In this document: piece by piece, positions 7,624 through 57,722 of the stretch
Layout of the letters: the number at the start of each line of letters is the position of its first letter
Position numbering within the stretch: the stretch's first letter is position 1
NCBI RefSeq assembly: GCF_003340565.1
Contig: NZ_QPLK01000003.1
Span: forward strand, 186,001-250,000
Length of the DNA: 64,000 nucleotides
DNA from: Rhodovulum sp. 12E13
GTDB lineage: Bacteria; Pseudomonadota; Alphaproteobacteria; Rhodobacterales; Rhodobacteraceae
Direction: 5' to 3'
Translations under genes and position numbers: made by a program
Notes under the pieces: generated by a model
The model's input: the letters and a program-made list of their open reading frames with translations, nothing else
The model's database searches: none
Told to the model about the DNA's origin: nothing

Positions 7624-8735
7624 CAGCCGAGCTCCGATATCTTGCGGGTGCCGACGATCTCGAGCCCGTAGGCCTCGAGCCCGACGACCTTGGGCGTTGG
7701 GGAATTGGTGAGCAGCACCATTCGAGACAAGCCCAGCGACGACAGGATCTGCGCCCCGAGCCCGTATTGCCGCAGCGTCCCCGACGTGGCCTCGGTCTCG
7801 GCCGAGAGCTGCATGTGCAGGTCGCGCAGCAGCACCAGCACGCCCCGCCCCTCTTTCGCGATGGTCTCCATCGCCTCGGCGAATTCGCGGGCGCGCCCTT
7901 TCGGCCCCGTGCCCACGATGTCGAGCAGCGGGTCGAGCGCGTGCATTCGCACCAGCACCGGCTCGGGCCCCGAGATGTCGCCCTTGACCAGCGCGATGTG
8001 CTCGGCGCCCTGCGTGACGTCGGCATAGATGCGCATCTGCCAGCGCCCGCCGAACTCGCTCTCGATCTCGCGCTCCTCCCTGACCGACACGAGGTTGTCG
8101 TGGCGGCGCCGGTAGGCGATCAGGTCGGAGATCGTGCCGATCCGCAGGTTGTGCCGCTGCGCGAAGGCCACGAGGTCGGGCAGCCGCGCCATCGTGCCGT
8201 CCTCGTTCATGATCTCGCAGATCACGCCGGAGGGGTTCAGCCCGGCCAGCCGCGCGATGTCGACCGCGGCCTCGGTGTGTCCGGCCCGCACCAGCACGCC
8301 CCCCTCGCGGGCGCGCAACGGAAAGATGTGGCCGGGCGTGGCGATGTCGGCTGCCGTCGCCGCCCCGTCGATCGCGACCGACACGGTGTGCGCCCGGTCC
8401 GATGCCGAGATGCCCGTGGTCACCCCCTCGCGGGCCTCGATCGAGACGGTGAAGGCCGTCTCGTGACGCGACGAGTTGGTCGATGCCATCAGCGGCAGCC
8501 CCAACCGGTCGATCCGCTCGCCGGTCAGAGACAGACAGATCAGGCCGCGTCCGTAGGTTGCCATGAAGTTGATCGCGTCGGGCGTGGCCATCTGCGCGGG
8601 GATCACGAGATCGCCCTCGTTCTCGCGGTCCTCGTGGTCGACGAGGATGAACATCCGCCCGTTGCGCGCATCGGCGATGATCTCCTCGACCGGAGAGATC
8701 GCGTCGTGAAACGGGCTGTCTGGCGTATCGGGCAA
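7623..8735 (-). CDS. ribB: 3,4-dihydroxy-2-butanone-4-phosphate synthase with degenerate GTP cyclohydrolase II-like domain
   Basis: The N-terminal ~205 residues are DHBP synthase: [12 protein letters not shown] at ~33-44, and [16 protein letters not shown] for the ribulose-5-phosphate site. It makes the four-carbon precursor consumed by RibH. The C-terminal ~160 residues follow the GTP cyclohydrolase II fold ([19 protein letters not shown]) but lack the three zinc Cys of the catalytic GDVFGSxRCDCG motif, so this half is probably not a cyclohydrolase. The start is taken as TTG at 8735, with GGAGG five bases upstream; a longer frame adds a ~50-aa Arg-rich leader unlike the family. First gene of the ribB-ribH-nusB unit. 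Confidence 0.92.
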
Positions 8736-9085
8736 GGGGGCCTCCGGGGCGCGCGTCGCGGCAGTGCCGGCGGCAGATAGCCCAACGCGCCGATCTTGGC
8801 CAGAGCTCGATCGGCCCACGCACGCGCGACCCGGCGGGCGGCCGATGCGCCGCCGGATGGCCCGCCGCGGTCGCGCATCCGGCAATCCCAATGCCGACGC
8901 GCCTCAACGGGCCATGCCTGCGGGGCCCTCCAAGGAACACCGGCAGGCGCGCGGCCACCGGTCGCGGCGCCGGCACGCTCACGCCGTCATGCCCACCGCA
9001 TCCATCTGGCCGCCGGGGCCTGCTCGGCCTGCCTGCGGTCTGCATCGCACGCGCCGCCCCGCCGGCCCCGGGGCCCCGCGCCGGA
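8736..9085. other. intergenic stretch of 350 nt upstream of ribB
   Basis: This gap separates the hydrolase stop from the likely ribB start, both on minus. I looked for an FMN riboswitch upstream of ribB and did not recognise its conserved core. No gene-like frame with a domain is present. It must hold the promoter for the rib unit unless transcription reads through from upstream. Confidence 0.45.
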
Positions 9086-10039
9086 TCAGCCCGCCGCGCC
9101 CGCCTGGTCGAACATCTCCGCCGCCGCGTCGAAGAAGCGCTCCCGCACCTCTTCCCGCTCCATCATGATCTCGTGCTCGGCGCCGGGCTCGATCACCAGC
9201 CGCCCCGCCGGCCAGCTGCCCATGCGAACCCGCATGTCGGCCAGATCGACGATCCGCTCGTTCTCGCCCGCGACGCACAGCCCCGGCAGATCGGGAGCGC
9301 GCAGCCGCCTCAGCGCCCGCACCTCGCGCAGCGCCTCGTTGACCCAGGCCATCGACGGCCCCCCGAGCGCGAGCTCCGGGTGGGCGCGCAACGCCGCCTG
9401 CATCCAGTCGAACATGGCCCGGTCGGTCGTCAGCATGTTGCCTTCGAACGCCGCCGCGAGCAGATAGTTCTCGGGGCTCGAGGTGGGCACGACCCGCCCG
9501 CCGAGGCCCGCCGGCCGGGCGAGCGTCGTCACCGTCCATGCGAGCGAGCGCATGTAGGCCGAGAGCCTGATGCCCCACATCGGGCCCGAGAAGACAGCGC
9601 TCGCCACCGGCAGGCCCGAATGGACCGCGCGCAACCCGATCGCGCCCCCCATCGAATGGCCGATCAGGTGCCAGGGCCGCGGCAGCGAGAGATCGTCGGC
9701 CGCCTGCACCATGGCGGCGACATCCCGCTGGTAATCGTCGAAGCGTTCGATATGCCCCATGCGACGGTCGGGCAGGAACCGGTCGGTCAGCCCCTGGCCC
9801 CGCCAGTCGATGGCCAGCATGCCGTAGCCGCGCGCCGCCAGCGCGCGCCCCGCCGGCCCGTATTTCTCGACGAACTCGGTGCGGCCGGGAAACAGCAGCG
9901 CCGTGCCGCGCCCCCCCTCGCCCAGAAGCGCGATGCGCACGCGCGCCCCGTCTCCGGGCCGGCCCGGCGCCTCGACCCAGAAGGCGCGGGCGCCCGGGTC
10001 GGCGTCGGCGATCTCGTCGAAGAAGGGGGCGGGCTCCAC
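9086..10039 (-). CDS. alpha/beta hydrolase, lysophospholipase/monoacylglycerol lipase-like (PldB family)
   Basis: The 317-aa protein is an alpha/beta hydrolase with the nucleophile elbow GHSMGG (Ser129) and IDWRGQGLTDR just before it. It ends with AGENERIVDL (acid) and PGAEHEIMMERE (His). The pattern and length fit PldB-like lysophospholipases, which release fatty acids from lysolipids. No signal peptide was seen, so it is probably cytoplasmic. The start is GTG at 10039, lying inside the palindrome CCACGCCGGCGTGG (10036-10049). It is 13 nt downstream of the SCP2 gene stop, so the two are likely one transcript. The exact substrate is unknown. Confidence 0.82.
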   Translation of the reverse strand: MEPAPFFDEIADADPGARAFWVEAPGRPGDGARVRIALLGEGGRGTALLFPGRTEFVEKYGPAGRALAARGYGMLAIDWRGQGLTDRFLPDRRMGHIERFDDYQRDVAAMVQAADDLSLPRPWHLIGHSMGGAIGLRAVHSGLPVASAVFSGPMWGIRLSAYMRSLAWTVTTLARPAGLGGRVVPTSSPENYLLAAAFEGNMLTTDRAMFDWMQAALRAHPELALGGPSMAWVNEALREVRALRRLRAPDLPGLCVAGENERIVDLADMRVRMGSWPAGRLVIEPGAEHEIMMEREEVRERFFDAAAEMFDQAGAAG

Positions 10040-50388: not shown

Positions 50389-51036
50389 ATGAGCGCGCCC
50401 GCCACCTTTCCCCTGCCAGCGCGGCTCGATCTCTCCACCGCCGCGATGCTGGCCGAGGGGCTGCGCGCGCACCGGGGGGCCGATCTCGCGCTCGACGCGG
50501 GTGATCTCACGCATCTCGGCACGCCGGGCCTGCAGGTGCTCCTGTCGGCTCGCAGGAGCTGGGGGGCTGCCGGCCACGCGCTCAGCATCGAGAATGCGCC
50601 CGAAACGCTGGCCGAGCAGCTGGCGCAGTTTGGCCTGCGCGAGGACGACCTCGTCACCGCCGGCGCCACGGCTCGGGCGGCGGGTGACCCGCACCCGCCG
50701 CCCGAGCCGCCCCCTGCCCCACCGGCTCTCGGCGCCCCCGATGCCGCCGCGGGCTCCGAGGCCGCGCCGGAGGTGAGCGCCGCGCCCGACACGACCGCCG
50801 AAATCGCGTCGCCGAATGACGGTGACGGGCAGCAGACGGCCGATCCCGGGATGGTCACCTACGCGGGGCCCGACCTGCCCGCGCCGGGCGAGGCGCCGGC
50901 AGCCGCCGCGGCCGACCTCCCCGATCTATCCGACCTATCCGACCTGTCCGCGCCCGATCTCGCCTCCCCGGCGGGCGACGACGGAAGGGACGCGGCCACG
51001 ACAGACGGCGACACCACCGAGGGAGACCGCTCATGA
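50389..51036 (+). CDS. STAS-domain protein with acidic disordered tail
   Basis: The 215-aa protein has an N-terminal STAS fold of ~88 residues (FPLPARLDLSTAAMLAEGLR, LALDAGDLTHLGTPGLQVLL, and GHALSIENAPETLAEQLAQF). The remaining ~125 residues are a Pro/Ala/Asp tail with the repeat LPDLSDLSDLS. STAS domains act as switch partners; heading a chemotaxis operon suggests a role linked to CheA or CheY. A similar LPDLSDL string occurs in the CheA linker. The ATG at 50389 is used because the STAS fold starts at once. It overlaps cheY. Confidence 0.8.
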   Translation: MSAPATFPLPARLDLSTAAMLAEGLRAHRGADLALDAGDLTHLGTPGLQVLLSARRSWGAAGHALSIENAPETLAEQLAQFGLREDDLVTAGATARAAGDPHPPPEPPPAPPALGAPDAAAGSEAAPEVSAAPDTTAEIASPNDGDGQQTADPGMVTYAGPDLPAPGEAPAAAAADLPDLSDLSDLSAPDLASPAGDDGRDAATTDGDTTEGDRS

Positions 51037-51410
51037 GCCTGCAAATCCTCGCGGTGGACGACAGCCGCACCATCCGCGACATGCTCAAGATGGCGCTGAC
51101 CCAGGCGGGCTTCGAGACCAGCCTCGCCGAGGACGGCATGCACGGCCTCGAGGTGCTCGACGGAATGGCGCCCGACGCGATCATCACCGACATCAACATG
51201 CCCCGTATGGACGGGTTCGGCTTCATCGAGGCGGTCCGCGCGCAAGACAAGCACCGCGCGACGCCGATCCTCGTGCTGACGACGGAAAGCGCGCCGGAAC
51301 TCAAGGCGCGCGCCCGGGCGGCGGGGGCCACGGGCTGGATCGTCAAACCCTTCGACCCAGAAAAACTGGTGCGCGCGCTGCGCACCGTCGCCGGACCGGG
51401 AGGCGCGTGA
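51033..51410 (+). CDS. cheY: CheY response regulator (first)
   Basis: The 125-aa single-domain receiver has the acid pair Asp9-Asp10 (ILAVDDSRTIRDMLKMAL), the phosphorylation site Asp53 (IITDINMPRMDGFGF), the switch Thr83 in LVLTTES and Lys105 in WIVKPFDPEKL. It is a target of CheA phosphorylation. Start and stop both overlap neighbours, so it is coupled to the STAS gene and cheA. Its closeness to PilG/CheY-type sink or motor regulators cannot be decided by eye. Confidence 0.93.
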   Translation: MSLQILAVDDSRTIRDMLKMALTQAGFETSLAEDGMHGLEVLDGMAPDAIITDINMPRMDGFGFIEAVRAQDKHRATPILVLTTESAPELKARARAAGATGWIVKPFDPEKLVRALRTVAGPGGA

Positions 51411-53689
51411 TGTCCGACCCGATGGCCGAAATCCGTGCCTCCTTCTTCATCGAGTGCGAGGAACTGCTCGAGGCGCTGCAGGACGGTCTCGCCGCGATGG
51501 ATGGCGGCGACACCGACGCCGAGACCATCAATATCTGCTTCAGGGCCGTCCACTCGATGAAGGGCGGCGCCGGTGCCTTCGGCCTCGAATCGCTGGTGCG
51601 CTTCGCCCATCGCTACGAGACGGTGATGGACGAGATCCGCGCCGGCCGGCTGGCGCCCGACCGCGACGCGATGATGCTGTTCTTCCGCGCGGCCGACGTG
51701 CTCTCCGACATCGTGCGCACAAGCCGCGACGGCGAGCACATCGACGAGGCCGAGGTCGAATCGGTGCTCGGCCAGCTCGAGGCGCTGGCCGGCGGGGCGC
51801 CCGAGGAAGAGGAGGAAGAGGTCGCCGATTTCCAGCCGATGGGCCTTGCCATAGACCTCGACGGCACGCCCGAGCTGCCCGCCGACGCACCCTGGACGAT
51901 CCGCTTCGCCCCGCATGCCGAACTGTTCCGCTCCGGAAACGAGCCGCAGCATCTGCTGCGCGCCCTCGCCGCCCTCGGCGAGGCGCAGATCGTCTGCCGG
52001 CAGGACGATCTGCCGCCTCTCGACGAGATCGAGCCCGAAGCGCCGTATCTTGCGTGGGAGATCACGCTCGACACCGATAAGGGCGAGGAAGAGATCCGCG
52101 AGATCTTCGACTTCGTCGACGGCATCTGCACCCTCGAGGTGTCGGGCGGGCCGAGCGGCCCGGCCTTGCCGCCCCTGCCCGACCTGTCGGACCTGCCCGG
52201 CACGATCGACGACGGCGAGGCGCCCGTGGTGCCGCAGGCCGAGGCGCCCGTGCCAGACGGCACGGCGCGGCGCATCACCCTCAGCGAACCTGCCGGCGAC
52301 ACCTCCGGGGACGGGCCCGGCACGCCGCTGCCGTCTGCGGGCGGCGAGGCGCCAGAGCCCGCCGGCCCTCCCGCGGCGCCGCCTACCCGGTCTGCCGCCT
52401 CGGCCGACCCCGCGGGCGGGAGCGGCGCAGGCGGTGGCGCCGGCAACGGCGAGGCGCGCCAGTCCCAGGCTGCCGCGCAGACCAAGCCCACGGTGCGGGT
52501 CGACCTCGAGCGCATCGACCGCCTCGTGAATCTCGTGGGCGAACTCGTGATCAACCAGGCGATGCTCAGCCAGAGCGTGCAGGAAGCCGGCATTCCCTCG
52601 AACTCACCCGTCTCACAGGGCCTCGAGGAGTTCATGCAGCTCACGCGCGACATCCAGGACAGCGTGATGATGATCCGCGCCCAGCCTGTGAAGTCGCTGT
52701 TCCAGCGCATGTCGCGAATCGTGCGCGAGGCCTCCGCCGCCGTCGACAAGCGCGTGCGTCTCAAGACCGAGGGCGAAGCGACCGAGGTCGACAAGACCGT
52801 GATCGAGCGTCTCGCCGATCCGCTGACGCACATGATCCGCAATGCTGTCGACCACGGCCTCGAAAGCGGCGAGAAACGCCGCGCGGCGGGCAAGTCCGAG
52901 GAAGGCGTCGTCACCCTCACGGCGGCGCACCGCTCCGGGCGCGTCGTCATCGAGGTGGCCGACGACGGCGGCGGCATCAACCGACCGCGCGTGCGCCAGA
53001 TCGCGGAGGAAAAGGGCCTCATCCCCGAAGGCCTGTCGATGACCGACTCGGAGATCGACAACCTGCTCTTCATGCCCGGTTTCTCCACCGCCTCGCAGAT
53101 TTCCGACCTGTCGGGCCGCGGGGTAGGCATGGACGTGGTGCGCTCCTCGATCCAGGAGCTCGGCGGCCGCATCACCATCGCCTCCGAGCCGGGCGTCGGC
53201 ACGACCTTCTCGATCTCGCTGCCGCTGACGCTGGCGGTGCTCGACGGCATGGTCGTTCGCGCGGGCGGCGAGACGCTGGTGGTGCCCCTCGGCGCCATCG
53301 TCGAGACCCTGTCGCTCGCCGACGAGGAGATCCGCTCGATCGGGCCGGGCCGGAACGTGCTGCATATCCGCGACACCTTCGTGCCGCTGCTCGATCTCGC
53401 AGTCGAGCTGGACTATCGCGGCCCGCTCGAGAGCTATGATGGCTCCGTCGTTCTCCTGATCCAGCAGGAAGACGGGGCGCGCGCCGCTCTCGTCGTCGAC
53501 TCGATCGAGGAGCAGCGACAGGTCGTCATCAAGGGTCTTCAGGACAGTTACGGTCACGTGCCCGGGATCGCCGCCGCCACGATCCTTGGCGACGGCCAGA
53601 TCGCGCTGATCCTGGACCCTGTCGACCTGATGTCGAACGTCGCGGGGCGCAGCCGCGGCGCCGTGCCCTCCCTCGATCTCGCAGGATGA
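51410..53689 (+). CDS. cheA: chemotaxis histidine kinase CheA
   Basis: The 759-aa kinase has an HPt domain with phospho-His48 (AVHSMKGGAGAFG). A domain at ~155-250 (WTIRFAPHAELFRSGNEPQH) is in the P2 position. A low-complexity linker with LPDLSDLPG near residue 255 follows. The dimerisation helices (VRVDLERIDRLVNLVGELVI) start near 360. The ATPase has DPLTHMIRNAVDHGLE, ADDGGGIN and SGRGVGMDVV, and the CheW-like domain ends the protein. It phosphorylates CheY and CheB in receptor arrays. Length is within the family range. Confidence 0.96.
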   Translation: MSDPMAEIRASFFIECEELLEALQDGLAAMDGGDTDAETINICFRAVHSMKGGAGAFGLESLVRFAHRYETVMDEIRAGRLAPDRDAMMLFFRAADVLSDIVRTSRDGEHIDEAEVESVLGQLEALAGGAPEEEEEEVADFQPMGLAIDLDGTPELPADAPWTIRFAPHAELFRSGNEPQHLLRALAALGEAQIVCRQDDLPPLDEIEPEAPYLAWEITLDTDKGEEEIREIFDFVDGICTLEVSGGPSGPALPPLPDLSDLPGTIDDGEAPVVPQAEAPVPDGTARRITLSEPAGDTSGDGPGTPLPSAGGEAPEPAGPPAAPPTRSAASADPAGGSGAGGGAGNGEARQSQAAAQTKPTVRVDLERIDRLVNLVGELVINQAMLSQSVQEAGIPSNSPVSQGLEEFMQLTRDIQDSVMMIRAQPVKSLFQRMSRIVREASAAVDKRVRLKTEGEATEVDKTVIERLADPLTHMIRNAVDHGLESGEKRRAAGKSEEGVVTLTAAHRSGRVVIEVADDGGGINRPRVRQIAEEKGLIPEGLSMTDSEIDNLLFMPGFSTASQISDLSGRGVGMDVVRSSIQELGGRITIASEPGVGTTFSISLPLTLAVLDGMVVRAGGETLVVPLGAIVETLSLADEEIRSIGPGRNVLHIRDTFVPLLDLAVELDYRGPLESYDGSVVLLIQQEDGARAALVVDSIEEQRQVVIKGLQDSYGHVPGIAAATILGDGQIALILDPVDLMSNVAGRSRGAVPSLDLAG

Positions 53690-54165
53690 CGCTCATGACC
53701 GATCACGCCGTCTCCCCCGACGACCGCTCCGAGCTCGAGCTGCTCTCGTTCCGCGTGGGCGAGCAGGAATACTCCGTCGACATCATGTCGGTGCGCGAGA
53801 TCCGTGGCTGGACGAGGGCCACACCGCTGCCCCATTCAGAGCCCTTCGTGCGCGGCGTCATCAACCTCCGCGGCGCCGTTCTGCCGATCATCGACCTCTC
53901 CTGCCGCCTCGGCATCGGCGCCACCGAGACGACCGAGCGCAACGTCATCATCGTGGTTCAGATGGAGGGGCAGTCGATCGGCCTGCTTGTCGATGCCGTC
54001 TCCGACATCCTGTCGATCCCGCGCAGCGACCTGCAGGCGCCGCCCGACATGCTGGCCGACGCCGCGCACAGCTTCGTGCGCGCCCTCACGGTCGTCGAGG
54101 GGCGCATGCTGCGCATCCTCGATTTGCATTCCGTCTATCCCCAGCGCGAAGGCAACGCCGCGTGA
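53686..54165 (+). CDS. cheW: chemotaxis coupling protein CheW
   Basis: The 159-aa protein is a single CheW domain: LLSFRVGEQEYSVDIMSVRE, IRGWTRATPLPHSEPFVRGV and INLRGAVLPIIDLSCRLG, then GLLVDAVSDILSI. It links CheA to chemoreceptors. Its start overlaps the cheA stop; a second ATG three codons on is equally possible. The stop overlaps the cheR start. Confidence 0.95.
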   Translation: MTLMTDHAVSPDDRSELELLSFRVGEQEYSVDIMSVREIRGWTRATPLPHSEPFVRGVINLRGAVLPIIDLSCRLGIGATETTERNVIIVVQMEGQSIGLLVDAVSDILSIPRSDLQAPPDMLADAAHSFVRALTVVEGRMLRILDLHSVYPQREGNAA

Positions 54166-55064
54166 CCGGTGCACCCGCCCTCTCGCCCGCGCCGAGCGCC
54201 GGCCGCCTCGACGGGCCGGACCTGGCGCATTTCGATACGATCGCGGCGCGCGCGCATCGAGAGGCCGGGCTTGTCCTGCCGCGCGACAAGGCGCCGATGG
54301 TGCTGGCCAGGATCGGCAAGCGCCTGCGCGCGTCGGGCCACGCCACGCTCGCCGAGTATTGCGCGTTCCTCGACAGCGAGGCCGGCGTGGAGGAGCGGCG
54401 CGAACTCATCTATACCCTGACGACCAACGTCACGAGCTTCTTCCGCGAGCAGCACCATTTCGACGGCCTGCGCGAGCGCATCCTCCCCGGGCTCGTCGAG
54501 CGGGCGCGGGCGGGCGGCCGCGTCCGGCTCTGGTCGGCAGGCTGTTCCTCCGGGCAGGAGCCCTACAGCCTCGCCATGGTCGTTCTCGACGCGCTGCCCG
54601 AGGCCGCCCGCTGCGATCTGCGCATCCTCGCGACAGACATCGACCCCTACGTGCTCGCCGAGGCGCGCAAGGCCGTCTACCCCGAGGCGCAGGTCGAGCC
54701 GGTGCCCGAGGCCATGCGCCGCCGCTTCCTCGAGCCGGCACCGGGGCGCGACGGCACACGGGCCTGGCGCGTGGCCGAGCCGGCACGCAGCCTCGTGGCC
54801 TTCCGCGAGCTCAACCTGCTCAAGGAGTGGCCGATGCGCGGCCGCTTCGATGCAATCTTCTGCCGGAACGTCGTGATCTACTTCGACCGCGAGACGCAGC
54901 GCTGCCTTTGGGAGCGGTTCGCCGCGGCGCTGGCGCCGGGAGGGCATCTCTTTCTCGGCCATTCCGAGCGGATCGATACCGCCGCCACCGACGCCTTCCG
55001 CGTGGTGGGGACGACCATGTACCAGCGCGCCGCGCCCGGCGCGCAGAACCAGACGAGGGGCTGA
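54162..55064 (+). CDS. cheR: chemotaxis protein methyltransferase CheR
   Basis: The 300-aa enzyme has the N-terminal helical domain (LVLPRDKAPMVLARIGKRLR), TTNVTSFFREQHHFDGLRER, the SAM-binding loop RLWSAGCSSGQEPYSLAMVV, and IFCRNVVIYFDRETQ. It methylates receptor glutamates for adaptation. The start is GTG at 54162 overlapping the cheW stop; the receptor-binding C-terminal pentapeptide question concerns receptors, not this gene. Confidence 0.95.
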   Translation: MTGAPALSPAPSAGRLDGPDLAHFDTIAARAHREAGLVLPRDKAPMVLARIGKRLRASGHATLAEYCAFLDSEAGVEERRELIYTLTTNVTSFFREQHHFDGLRERILPGLVERARAGGRVRLWSAGCSSGQEPYSLAMVVLDALPEAARCDLRILATDIDPYVLAEARKAVYPEAQVEPVPEAMRRRFLEPAPGRDGTRAWRVAEPARSLVAFRELNLLKEWPMRGRFDAIFCRNVVIYFDRETQRCLWERFAAALAPGGHLFLGHSERIDTAATDAFRVVGTTMYQRAAPGAQNQTRG

Positions 55065-55067
55065 GGC

Positions 55068-55454
55068 ATGGCTTTGCGCGATCAATTGCACGTCATGGTG
55101 GTCGACGACATGTCGACCAGCCGGGGCCTGATCCTGCAGGCGCTGGACAGTTTCGGTGTCCGCAACGTCCAGTACGCGGCCGACGGGCCGTCGGCACTGC
55201 AGGCGCTCGGCAAGCAACCTGCCCACCTCGTCCTGTCCGACTACAACATGCCGGGCATGGACGGGCTGCACCTGCTGCACGCCCTGCGCAGCGACGCCAG
55301 GCTCAAGGGCGTCGGCTTCATCCTGATCACCGGCAAGGCCGACCGGCAGATCATCGAGGCCGGCAAGAAGCTCGGAATGAACAACTTCATCAAGAAGCCG
55401 TTCCAGCCAAAGGATCTGCTCGCATCGATCGAAGCTGTTGTCGGCAGGCTGTGA
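55068..55454 (+). CDS. cheY2: CheY response regulator (second)
   Basis: The 128-aa receiver differs clearly from the first CheY. It has Asp13-Asp14 (MVVDDMSTSRGLILQALDSF), phosphorylation site Asp58 (LVLSDYNMPGMDGLHLL), Thr88 in ILITGKAD and Lys109/110 in NNFIKKPFQPKDL. The style is nearer to alphaproteobacterial CheY with NMPGMDG. One of the two CheYs probably drives the motor and the other serves as phosphate sink. The stop overlaps the next gene. Confidence 0.93.
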   Translation: MALRDQLHVMVVDDMSTSRGLILQALDSFGVRNVQYAADGPSALQALGKQPAHLVLSDYNMPGMDGLHLLHALRSDARLKGVGFILITGKADRQIIEAGKKLGMNNFIKKPFQPKDLLASIEAVVGRL

Positions 55455-55858
55455 TGGCGGACGGGATGCAGGAGACGCCCGACGCCGCGCGGGGCCGGAG
55501 CGAGGACGGCCTGCTGTCGGCCGCCCAGTTGAAGGCGCGCCTCGCGGACGAACTCGCCACCCTCGCGCGCGACATGGCCGCGTTCCAGCACACGCTCTCG
55601 GTCGTGCTCGAGGCGGGGCGCCTGTCAGCGGACCAACTGCGCCAATTGCAGGATCTCGACCGCGCCACGCAGATGCTCGACAACCTGCACCGGGTCGCAA
55701 TCGCGCTCGCCGCCGCCCATCCACACCCTGTGGCAGCCACCGAGCTCGACTCGCTCGTCACGCTGGCCGAACTCAAGAGCCGGCTTGCCGGCGCTCCCAC
55801 CGCCCCAGCCTCGACCGACCGCAGGGATCCCTCCGACGACGAGGTCGCCTGGCTCTGA
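55454..55858 (+). CDS. small helical chemotaxis-operon protein, candidate CheZ/CheT-like CheY phosphatase
   Basis: The 134-aa protein is mainly helical, with two long amphipathic segments (LKARLADELATLARDMAAFQ and LRQLQDLDRATQMLDNLHRV). The second contains DRATQ (Asp69-Gln73), which fits the DxxxQ motif used by CheZ-type CheY phosphatases and sits in a helix as in CheZ. Its start overlaps the cheY2 stop. A small CheZ-like protein, CheT, is reported in Sinorhizobium from what I recall. The disordered C-terminus ends DDEVAWL, reminiscent of a peptide that could bind CheY. Function is inferred from motif and context only. Confidence 0.72.
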   Translation: MADGMQETPDAARGRSEDGLLSAAQLKARLADELATLARDMAAFQHTLSVVLEAGRLSADQLRQLQDLDRATQMLDNLHRVAIALAAAHPHPVAATELDSLVTLAELKSRLAGAPTAPASTDRRDPSDDEVAWL

Positions 55859-56124: not shown

Positions 56125-56664
56125 TCAGAACAGCTCGATGTCGTTGCCCGGTGCAGCGGGAAGGCGGGGCGGCACGATCTCTTCCTGCGGGACGTGGGAC
56201 CCCTCGATCAGCAACTGCCGGGCGCGCCCCGTGAAGGGCCAGAACTGCACCCGGCGGCCCTGCGTGCCGCCGAGGCTGGCCGAGAGACACGGAATCCCCT
56301 CGCGCTCGAGAAAACCGCGGGCGAACTCGGCGTTGCGCGCGCCCACGTCCGACAGGCCCGCGATCATCCGCGCCCCGCCGAAGAGCTTGGCCTGCAGCCG
56401 GTCGCGCGCTCCGCCCGCGCGGAGGATCCCGTTGATCAGTAGCTCCATCGCGTTGACCCCGGCCGAGGCGCGCTGCAGGTCGGCATCGGGCGCGTCGGGC
56501 AGAACGATATGGTTCATCCCCCCCACGCGCGACTGCGGATCCCAGATGCAGGCCGCCACGCACGAGCCCAGGATGGTGGTAAGCAGCGCATCGGGCGTGG
56601 CGGCAACCACATGCTCCCCCTGCCCGACATGGATCCTGGTCTCGACCGGCTGGGGGCGCGTCAT
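56125..56664 (-). CDS. cheD: chemoreceptor glutamine deamidase CheD
   Basis: The 179-aa protein has the CheD catalytic core: Cys35 in TILGSCVAACIWD and His52 in GGMNHIVLP, then NAMELLINGILRAGGARDRL and LFGGARMIAGLSDVGARNAE. CheD deamidates receptor glutamines and in some species interacts with a CheY-phosphatase (CheC). Its ATG overlaps the cheB stop. It faces the plus-strand che operon tail to tail across 266 nt. Confidence 0.94.
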   Translation of the reverse strand: MTRPQPVETRIHVGQGEHVVAATPDALLTTILGSCVAACIWDPQSRVGGMNHIVLPDAPDADLQRASAGVNAMELLINGILRAGGARDRLQAKLFGGARMIAGLSDVGARNAEFARGFLEREGIPCLSASLGGTQGRRVQFWPFTGRARQLLIEGSHVPQEEIVPPRLPAAPGNDIELF

Positions 56665-57722
56665 GCCGCGCCCGCCCGGCCGGCAGGCCTGGCCCGCGAT
56701 CCGCGCCCCGTCGCGCGCAGGATGCTGCCCGCGATGGCGTCGAGCCGGCATACCTCCGCCACGCCACCCAGCTCGGCGGCGACGCGCGGCATGCCGTAGA
56801 CGACGCAACTGGCCGCGTCCTGCCCGATCGTGCGGGCCCCGGCCGCGCGCAGCGCGGCCATGCCTTCTGCCCCGTCGCGGCCCATTCCGGTCAGGATCAC
56901 CGCCACGACATGGTCGGCATGGCAAAGCCCCGAGCGGAACAGCACATCGACCGACGGGCGATGCCCGCTCACCTTGTCGCCGGCTTCGAGCCCGCAGCGG
57001 AAGCGACCGGGCGCGCCCTCGAGCACGAGGTGCGTCTCGCCCCCCGGGGCGAGATAGACGCGCCCCGGCCCGACCGGCGCGCCGGGGCGCGCGAGCGCGA
57101 CCTCGGGGCAGACCTGCCCCTGCAGGCGCTCGGCGAAGCTGGCGAGAAAGCTCTCGGGCATGTGCTGGGTGATCAGCACGGGCGGCCCCCCGGCGGGCAG
57201 GCCGCCGAGAACCCGCTCGAGCGCGTCGACCCCACCGGTAGAAGCGCCGATCAGCACGACCCGCCCGTTCCAGACATACGGTGAGGCATCCGCGGCCGGC
57301 GCCGGACGGCGCGGCGCGGGCGGTCTGCCCACCGAGGCGCCAGCGGCGACGAAGACCCGCTCGGCGAGGGCGGCGAGCGCCTCTGGTGCGGCAAGCGTCG
57401 GCTTGCCGAGGGCGTCGACGGCGCCGAGCGAAAGCGCTTCGACCGCCGAGCGGCTGCCCTTGTGCGTCTCGGACGAGAACATCACGACCGGCATCGGCCG
57501 CAGGCGCATGATCTTTTCGAGGAACGAGATGCCGTCCATGCGGGGCATCTCGACGTCGAGAGTGATCACGTCGGGGTCGGTGCCCTTGATGACCTCCCGG
57601 GCTTCATAGGGGTCGCCCGCCTCGCCCACGACGTCGAACCGCCCGTCGTCGCGCAGCACCTTGCCGATCATCGCCCGCATGGTGGGGGAATCGTCGACGA
57701 CCACGACACGCTTGCGCTGCAT
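56661..57722 (-). CDS. cheB: protein-glutamate methylesterase CheB
   Basis: The 353-aa protein has an N-terminal receiver (VVVVDDSPTMRAMIGKVLRD, phosphorylation site Asp56 in ITLDVEMPRMDG) and a methylesterase domain. Catalytic Ser161 lies in LIGASTGGVDALERVL, His187 in ITQHMPESFLASF, and the Asp in GMGRDGAEGM. CheA-dependent phosphorylation turns on receptor demethylation and deamidation. The ATG at 57722 follows GGATGGAG. A CtrA-like site lies 83 nt upstream. cheB and cheD form their own transcript separate from cheAWR. Confidence 0.95.
   Translation of the reverse strand: MQRKRVVVVDDSPTMRAMIGKVLRDDGRFDVVGEAGDPYEAREVIKGTDPDVITLDVEMPRMDGISFLEKIMRLRPMPVVMFSSETHKGSRSAVEALSLGAVDALGKPTLAAPEALAALAERVFVAAGASVGRPPAPRRPAPAADASPYVWNGRVVLIGASTGGVDALERVLGGLPAGGPPVLITQHMPESFLASFAERLQGQVCPEVALARPGAPVGPGRVYLAPGGETHLVLEGAPGRFRCGLEAGDKVSGHRPSVDVLFRSGLCHADHVVAVILTGMGRDGAEGMAALRAAGARTIGQDAASCVVYGMPRVAAELGGVAEVCRLDAIAGSILRATGRGSRARPAGRAGAA

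Follow-up and report, generated by a model that had tools for sequence, protein, structure and literature searches.

A putative CheT-type CheY-P phosphatase encoded at the end of the chemotaxis operon in Rhodobacteraceae

The last gene of a chemotaxis operon in Rhodovulum sp. 12E13 encodes a 134-residue protein that is, with good confidence, the Rhodobacteraceae orthologue of CheT and as such a putative CheY-P phosphatase, whose preferred substrate by orthology would be CheY1-P. The gene lies in a 64,000-nucleotide stretch of contig NZ_QPLK01000003.1 (hereafter the window). Rhodobacteraceae, which are without CheZ, very probably have in this protein a putative signal-terminating phosphatase that has never been annotated. 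Accounts of chemotaxis in the family have so far included no dedicated, CheZ-like CheY phosphatase; for Rhodobacter sphaeroides, PMC6829392 and PMC2924250 describe as the phosphatase the bifunctional CheA3, which acts on CheY6. No report of CheT in Rhodobacteraceae was found in the literature searched, and in Ruegeria and Phaeobacter the gene carries a hypothetical annotation. The finding provides a putative, testable phosphatase for a large and mostly marine group, and shows that CheT occurs broadly among the Alphaproteobacteria and is not confined to rhizobia. For sink systems with CheY1 and CheY2, the way in which the signal is ended becomes a simple in vitro question across many species.

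The gene and its relationship to CheT

The open reading frame (ORF) carries DRATQ at residues 69–73 and ends in DPSDDEVAWL. Its ATG overlaps the stop codon of cheY2 by one base (TGATG), which bears out the coupling to cheY2 claimed in the original prediction. The operon reads cheS-cheY1-cheA-cheW-cheR-cheY2-ORF, and cheD and cheB lie on the opposite strand, convergent to the ORF (Table 1). The CheS-like STAS protein of the window is extended at its C-terminus by about 110 residues, which are rich in Pro, Ala and Asp and contain DLSDLSDLS repeats. The STAS proteins found at the cheS place in Sinorhizobium meliloti, Ruegeria and Phaeobacter are shorter than 100 residues.

Table 1 Features of the chemotaxis region in the window, and receptor genes of the same genome
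Feature	Position	Strand	Basis
cheT-like gene, 134 aa	55454..55858	+	ORF; AlphaFold2 model; profile match to S. meliloti CheT
Q66-D-L-D69-R-A-T-Q73 (codons 66-73): DxxxQ motif and preceding invariant Q	55649..55672	+	Invariant in 65/65; face opposite hydrophobic moment
C-terminal tail DDEVAWL (codons 128-134), variant of the family G[D/E][V/I]xxF-like ending	55835..55855	+	C-terminal pattern, 65 members
cheY2; product 41% identical to its S. meliloti orthologue CheY2	55068..55454	+	Pfam Response_reg; tree
cheR	54162..55064	+	Pfam CheR, CheR_N
cheW	53686..54165	+	Pfam CheW
cheA	51407..53689	+	Pfam Hpt, H-kinase_dim, HATPase_c, CheW
cheY1; product 67% identical to its S. meliloti orthologue, the sink CheY1, and predicted substrate	51033..51410	+	Pfam Response_reg; blastp, tree
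cheS-like STAS gene, long acidic low-complexity C-terminal extension	50389..51036	+	Pfam STAS_2 E 7e-11; position as in S. meliloti
cheD, convergent to cheT, terminus GNDIELF	56125..56664	-	Pfam CheD; tail
cheB	56661..57722	-	Pfam CheB_methylest, Response_reg
Receptor genes	G000:C41:28225-28692 and four others (L280-L284)		

Searches of the ORF against Pfam and NCBIfam gave no meaningful family match; a weak match to NIR_SIR_ferr, covering 23 residues in 2 of 31 family members, was dropped as chance. The family profile, run against the sequences of the PDB, returned coiled-coil matches only. Homologues were found behind cheW-cheR-cheY2 in a first search of 41 genomes (the organism's own and relatives), and a profile built from seven of them was run on 150 Rhodobacteraceae genomes. 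This yielded 48 matches, nearly all directly 3' of a cheY2 among the 30 that were read. In the resulting family alignment (A2, 31 rows) four columns are invariant, corresponding to Q66, D69, Q73 and L104.

When the A2 profile was compared with a 3.7-Mb S. meliloti replicon, CheT was the only match (E 1e-11, positions 3–123 of 124). The same profile matches Shinella CheT (E 2.6e-14), the genes annotated as hypothetical in Ruegeria sp. TM1040 (WP_011536822.1) and Phaeobacter (E about 1e-16) and, in a further alphaproteobacterial family, a gene 3' of cheD (E 1.6e-12). In the reverse direction, four proteins that occupy the CheT position in other families were combined into a profile, which recovered the ORF in its own genome with E 2.9e-4. 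Based on hhalign, the family matches rhizobial CheT with 95.8% probability (E 7e-9) and the four CheT-position proteins with 97.7% (E 2e-12). The S. meliloti stretch is arranged as a globin-coupled sensor gene (icpA) followed by cheS-Y1-A-W-R-B-Y2-D-cheT-fliF; its CheT (UIJ95574.1, L205:8561-8935), likewise annotated as hypothetical, has the motif LQGIDLAVQ and the terminus GDFEAF. The features of CheT that are found in the ORF are homology over the full length, a conserved DxxxQ predicted to be exposed on a long helix, and the position at the end of the operon.

Two other arrangements were seen in che clusters. In the alphaproteobacterial cluster L145 a cheT homologue with the tail EEDVTFF sits between cheY2 and cheD on the opposite strand (7815-8369, -), and in the che operon of L127 (genome G288) cheY2 and cheD are separated by a gene for a 398-residue pentapeptide-repeat protein (8261-9454, +).

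Conservation, predicted exposure and relation to CheZ

DxxxQ taken alone is unremarkable, and therefore weak evidence, because 39% of shuffled family sequences carry one; the longer pattern Q..D...Q occurs in 2.3% of them. Conservation, as judged from the alignments, settles the question. Homologues were collected with CheY2 as an anchor, so that they were not chosen by their own motif. A CheY2 match was present in 62 of the 150 Rhodobacteraceae genomes, and in 57 of these the next gene downstream on the same strand is a family member with Q..D...Q. At three further loci (L243, L246, L272) cheY2 is followed by cheB or cheD, and the profile locates cheT elsewhere in the genome; the remaining two (L274, L276) hold distant CheYs without an adjoining cheR. 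By these profile matches CheT is nearly constant in the chemotaxis operons of Rhodobacteraceae, yet unannotated there. In a set of 65 members, comprising those from Rhodobacteraceae together with rhizobial, sphingomonad and other members, Q66, D69 and Q73 are present in every sequence, at identities down to approximately 20%. Thus D69 and Q73, on which the original prediction was built, are invariant. An origin of DxxxQ by chance in an Ala/Leu-rich helical protein with some other function, as its frequency in the shuffled sequences might suggest, is contradicted by this invariance and by the profile homology to CheT, and we give that explanation almost no credence.

The AlphaFold2 model, computed on A2, is a helical hairpin (residues 23–54 and 59–88) followed by two short helices (95–101 and 105–112), with the N-terminus (1–20) and the C-terminal tail disordered. 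Its confidence is medium, with pLDDT of 83–88 in the core blocks, a mean pLDDT of 75.6 and a pTM of 0.58. Residues 69–73 fall inside the second long helix, consistent with the helix originally predicted for DRATQ. The hydrophobic moment of this helix is 143–177 degrees from Q66, D69 and Q73; these residues point away from the hydrophobic face and are therefore predicted to be solvent-exposed, as an active face needs, rather than buried. Foldseek and VIA searches with the monomer model returned generic helical hairpins only. CheZ was not listed among them, a result that decides neither way on an architecture like the dimeric four-helix bundle of CheZ.

The original prediction placed the protein in a CheZ/CheT type, and only the second half of that name has stood. 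The CheT assignment is upheld by profile searches in both directions, whereas Pfam CheZ (PF04344) matches none of the 31 family members and the hhalign probability against alphaproteobacterial CheZ is 0.4%. A CheZ profile search found none in the window's genome and none above the cut-off in the family relatives, although the same search readily finds CheZ in other alphaproteobacterial families. The protein shares DxxxQ with CheZ, likewise on the second helix of a hairpin, as would be expected of a distant relative within the CheZ family itself; given the failed profile comparisons and the differences in length and C-terminus described below, we consider such membership very unlikely and rejected it. 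The CheT-family protein would be CheZ-like only through convergent chemistry, which we infer, or through a relationship too old to see. Profiles for CheC and CheX (PF04509, PF13690) matched neither the ORF protein nor anything else in the window's genome.

Substrate and C-terminal tail

The position next to cheY2 does not establish CheY2 as the substrate; by orthology, CheY1-P would be more likely than the neighbouring CheY2-P. This expectation follows from the orthology of CheY1 to the S. meliloti sink protein, with which it groups in the tree (CheY2 groups with S. meliloti CheY2), and from the sphingomonad-type clusters. In those clusters (L143, L209), ordered cheA-cheR-cheB-cheD-cheY-cheW-cheT, the sole CheY is of the CheY1 type, and CheT is therefore independent of a CheY2 in the cluster. 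The work of Agbekudzi et al. 2024 reportedly identified the substrate of S. meliloti CheT as the sink CheY1-P, not CheY2-P.

According to the review PMC12654446, S. meliloti CheT has DXXXQ and a predicted CheZ-like structure, accelerates the loss of phosphate from just one of the two CheYs, and forms a complex with CheR. An action on the adjacent motor regulator CheY2-P, which would make the Rhodobacteraceae protein a direct functional stand-in for CheZ, is possible but on balance doubtful. The gene lies directly 3' of cheY2 in 57 of 62 genomes and the stop and start codons often overlap, which might just as well mark CheY2 as the partner, but the genes are closely packed throughout the operon. 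Moreover, cheT of S. meliloti is 3' of cheD and not of cheY2, its product acts on a single CheY (PMC12654446), and the sphingomonad clusters again pair CheT with a CheY1-type CheY only.

The Asp of CheZ bridges to a conserved lysine of CheY. By analogy, the hairpin of the CheT orthologue would dock on phosphorylated CheY as CheZ does, D69 would touch the CheY active site and Q73 would position the attacking water, resulting in faster decay of CheY-P. If the substrate is CheY1-P, its drainage would keep the sink open, CheA would take phosphate back from CheY2-P, and the motor signal would end. In the sink scheme of PMC4214558 and PMC8429497, an emptier CheY1 sink would mean a shorter CheY2-P signal.

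Phosphatase activity may not be the sole or main function of CheT, given the reported binding of CheR in S. meliloti. A purely non-catalytic role, in which the conserved face serves only as a scaffold that holds CheY-P or CheR and links signal termination to adaptation, draws on that binding (PMC12654446) and on a conserved tail resembling that of CheD. We regard it as improbable; it is precisely the Asp and Gln of DxxxQ, predicted to be exposed, that do not vary in 65 divergent sequences, which fits catalysis better, and phosphatase activity is reported for S. meliloti CheT in the same source.

The C-terminal tail is itself a conserved feature. The pattern [VILMFAP]x[LFWMIVA][FWLY] closes 49 of the 65 members, compared with 3% at internal positions, and 46 of the 65 end in Phe. 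The acidic tail of the ORF, which had been likened to a CheY-binding tail, is real and is a variant of the family ending, but this ending is nearer to the tail of CheD than to that of CheZ. A G[D/E][V/I]ELF-like ending closes most alphaproteobacterial CheD proteins, with GNDIELF in the window, based on tails read there (56125-56664, -) and in L127, L128, L143, L145 and L155-L204. Since CheD carries this tail with or without a neighbouring CheT, the tail was rejected as a pairing signal between the two proteins. The disordered tail of CheT would probably dock it on a partner, possibly CheR.

CheT and CheD could carry docking peptides of one kind at their C-termini ([D/E/N]-hydrophobic-x-hydrophobic-F, as in GEVDLF of CheT and GDIELF of CheD), similar to the receptor pentapeptide xWxxF, for example GWEEF, that recruits CheR. 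The putative phosphatase and the deamidase CheD might then mimic the receptor tail, or vie with it, in binding to CheR or to some other partner common to them. Because S. meliloti CheT binds CheR this is a reasonable hypothesis to put forward, if a speculative one that we think unlikely. Five receptor genes were matched in the genome, and GWEEF, a pentapeptide of the CheR-binding type, was seen at the end of just one. If the hypothesis is true, signal termination would be physically coupled to adaptation throughout the Alphaproteobacteria.

Comparison with known systems

The closest known counterpart is CheT of S. meliloti and other Rhizobiaceae. Both proteins have the LQxxDxxxQ motif, both are short (124 residues in S. 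meliloti and 134 here) and both have a terminal tail resembling G-D-x-x-x-F; both genes stand at the end of a cheS-Y1-A-W-R operon. Identity is 26% over the aligned part. The gene orders also differ. In Rhodobacteraceae cheT is directly 3' of cheY2, whereas in S. meliloti cheD lies between cheY2 and cheT, and cheB precedes cheY2; the window has both cheB and cheD on the opposite strand.

The setting is analogous to the CheY1/CheS system of S. meliloti, for which a phosphate-sink function has been described (PMC4214558, PMC8429497). The window has the full set of cheS, cheY1, cheA and cheY2, ordered as in S. meliloti, but the CheS-like protein of the window has the long acidic extension, and the sink role in Rhodobacteraceae is putative.

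The likeness to CheZ consists of the DxxxQ motif on a long helix, and the chemistry would be alike. The two have no detectable sequence relation and differ in length (approximately 125 residues for CheT, approximately 200 for CheZ), and the alphaproteobacterial form of CheZ ends in SQDDIDALF where the CheT family ends in G[D/E][V/I]xxF. The phosphatases CheC, CheX and FliY would also serve the removal of CheY-P; they have an ExxN motif and a different fold.
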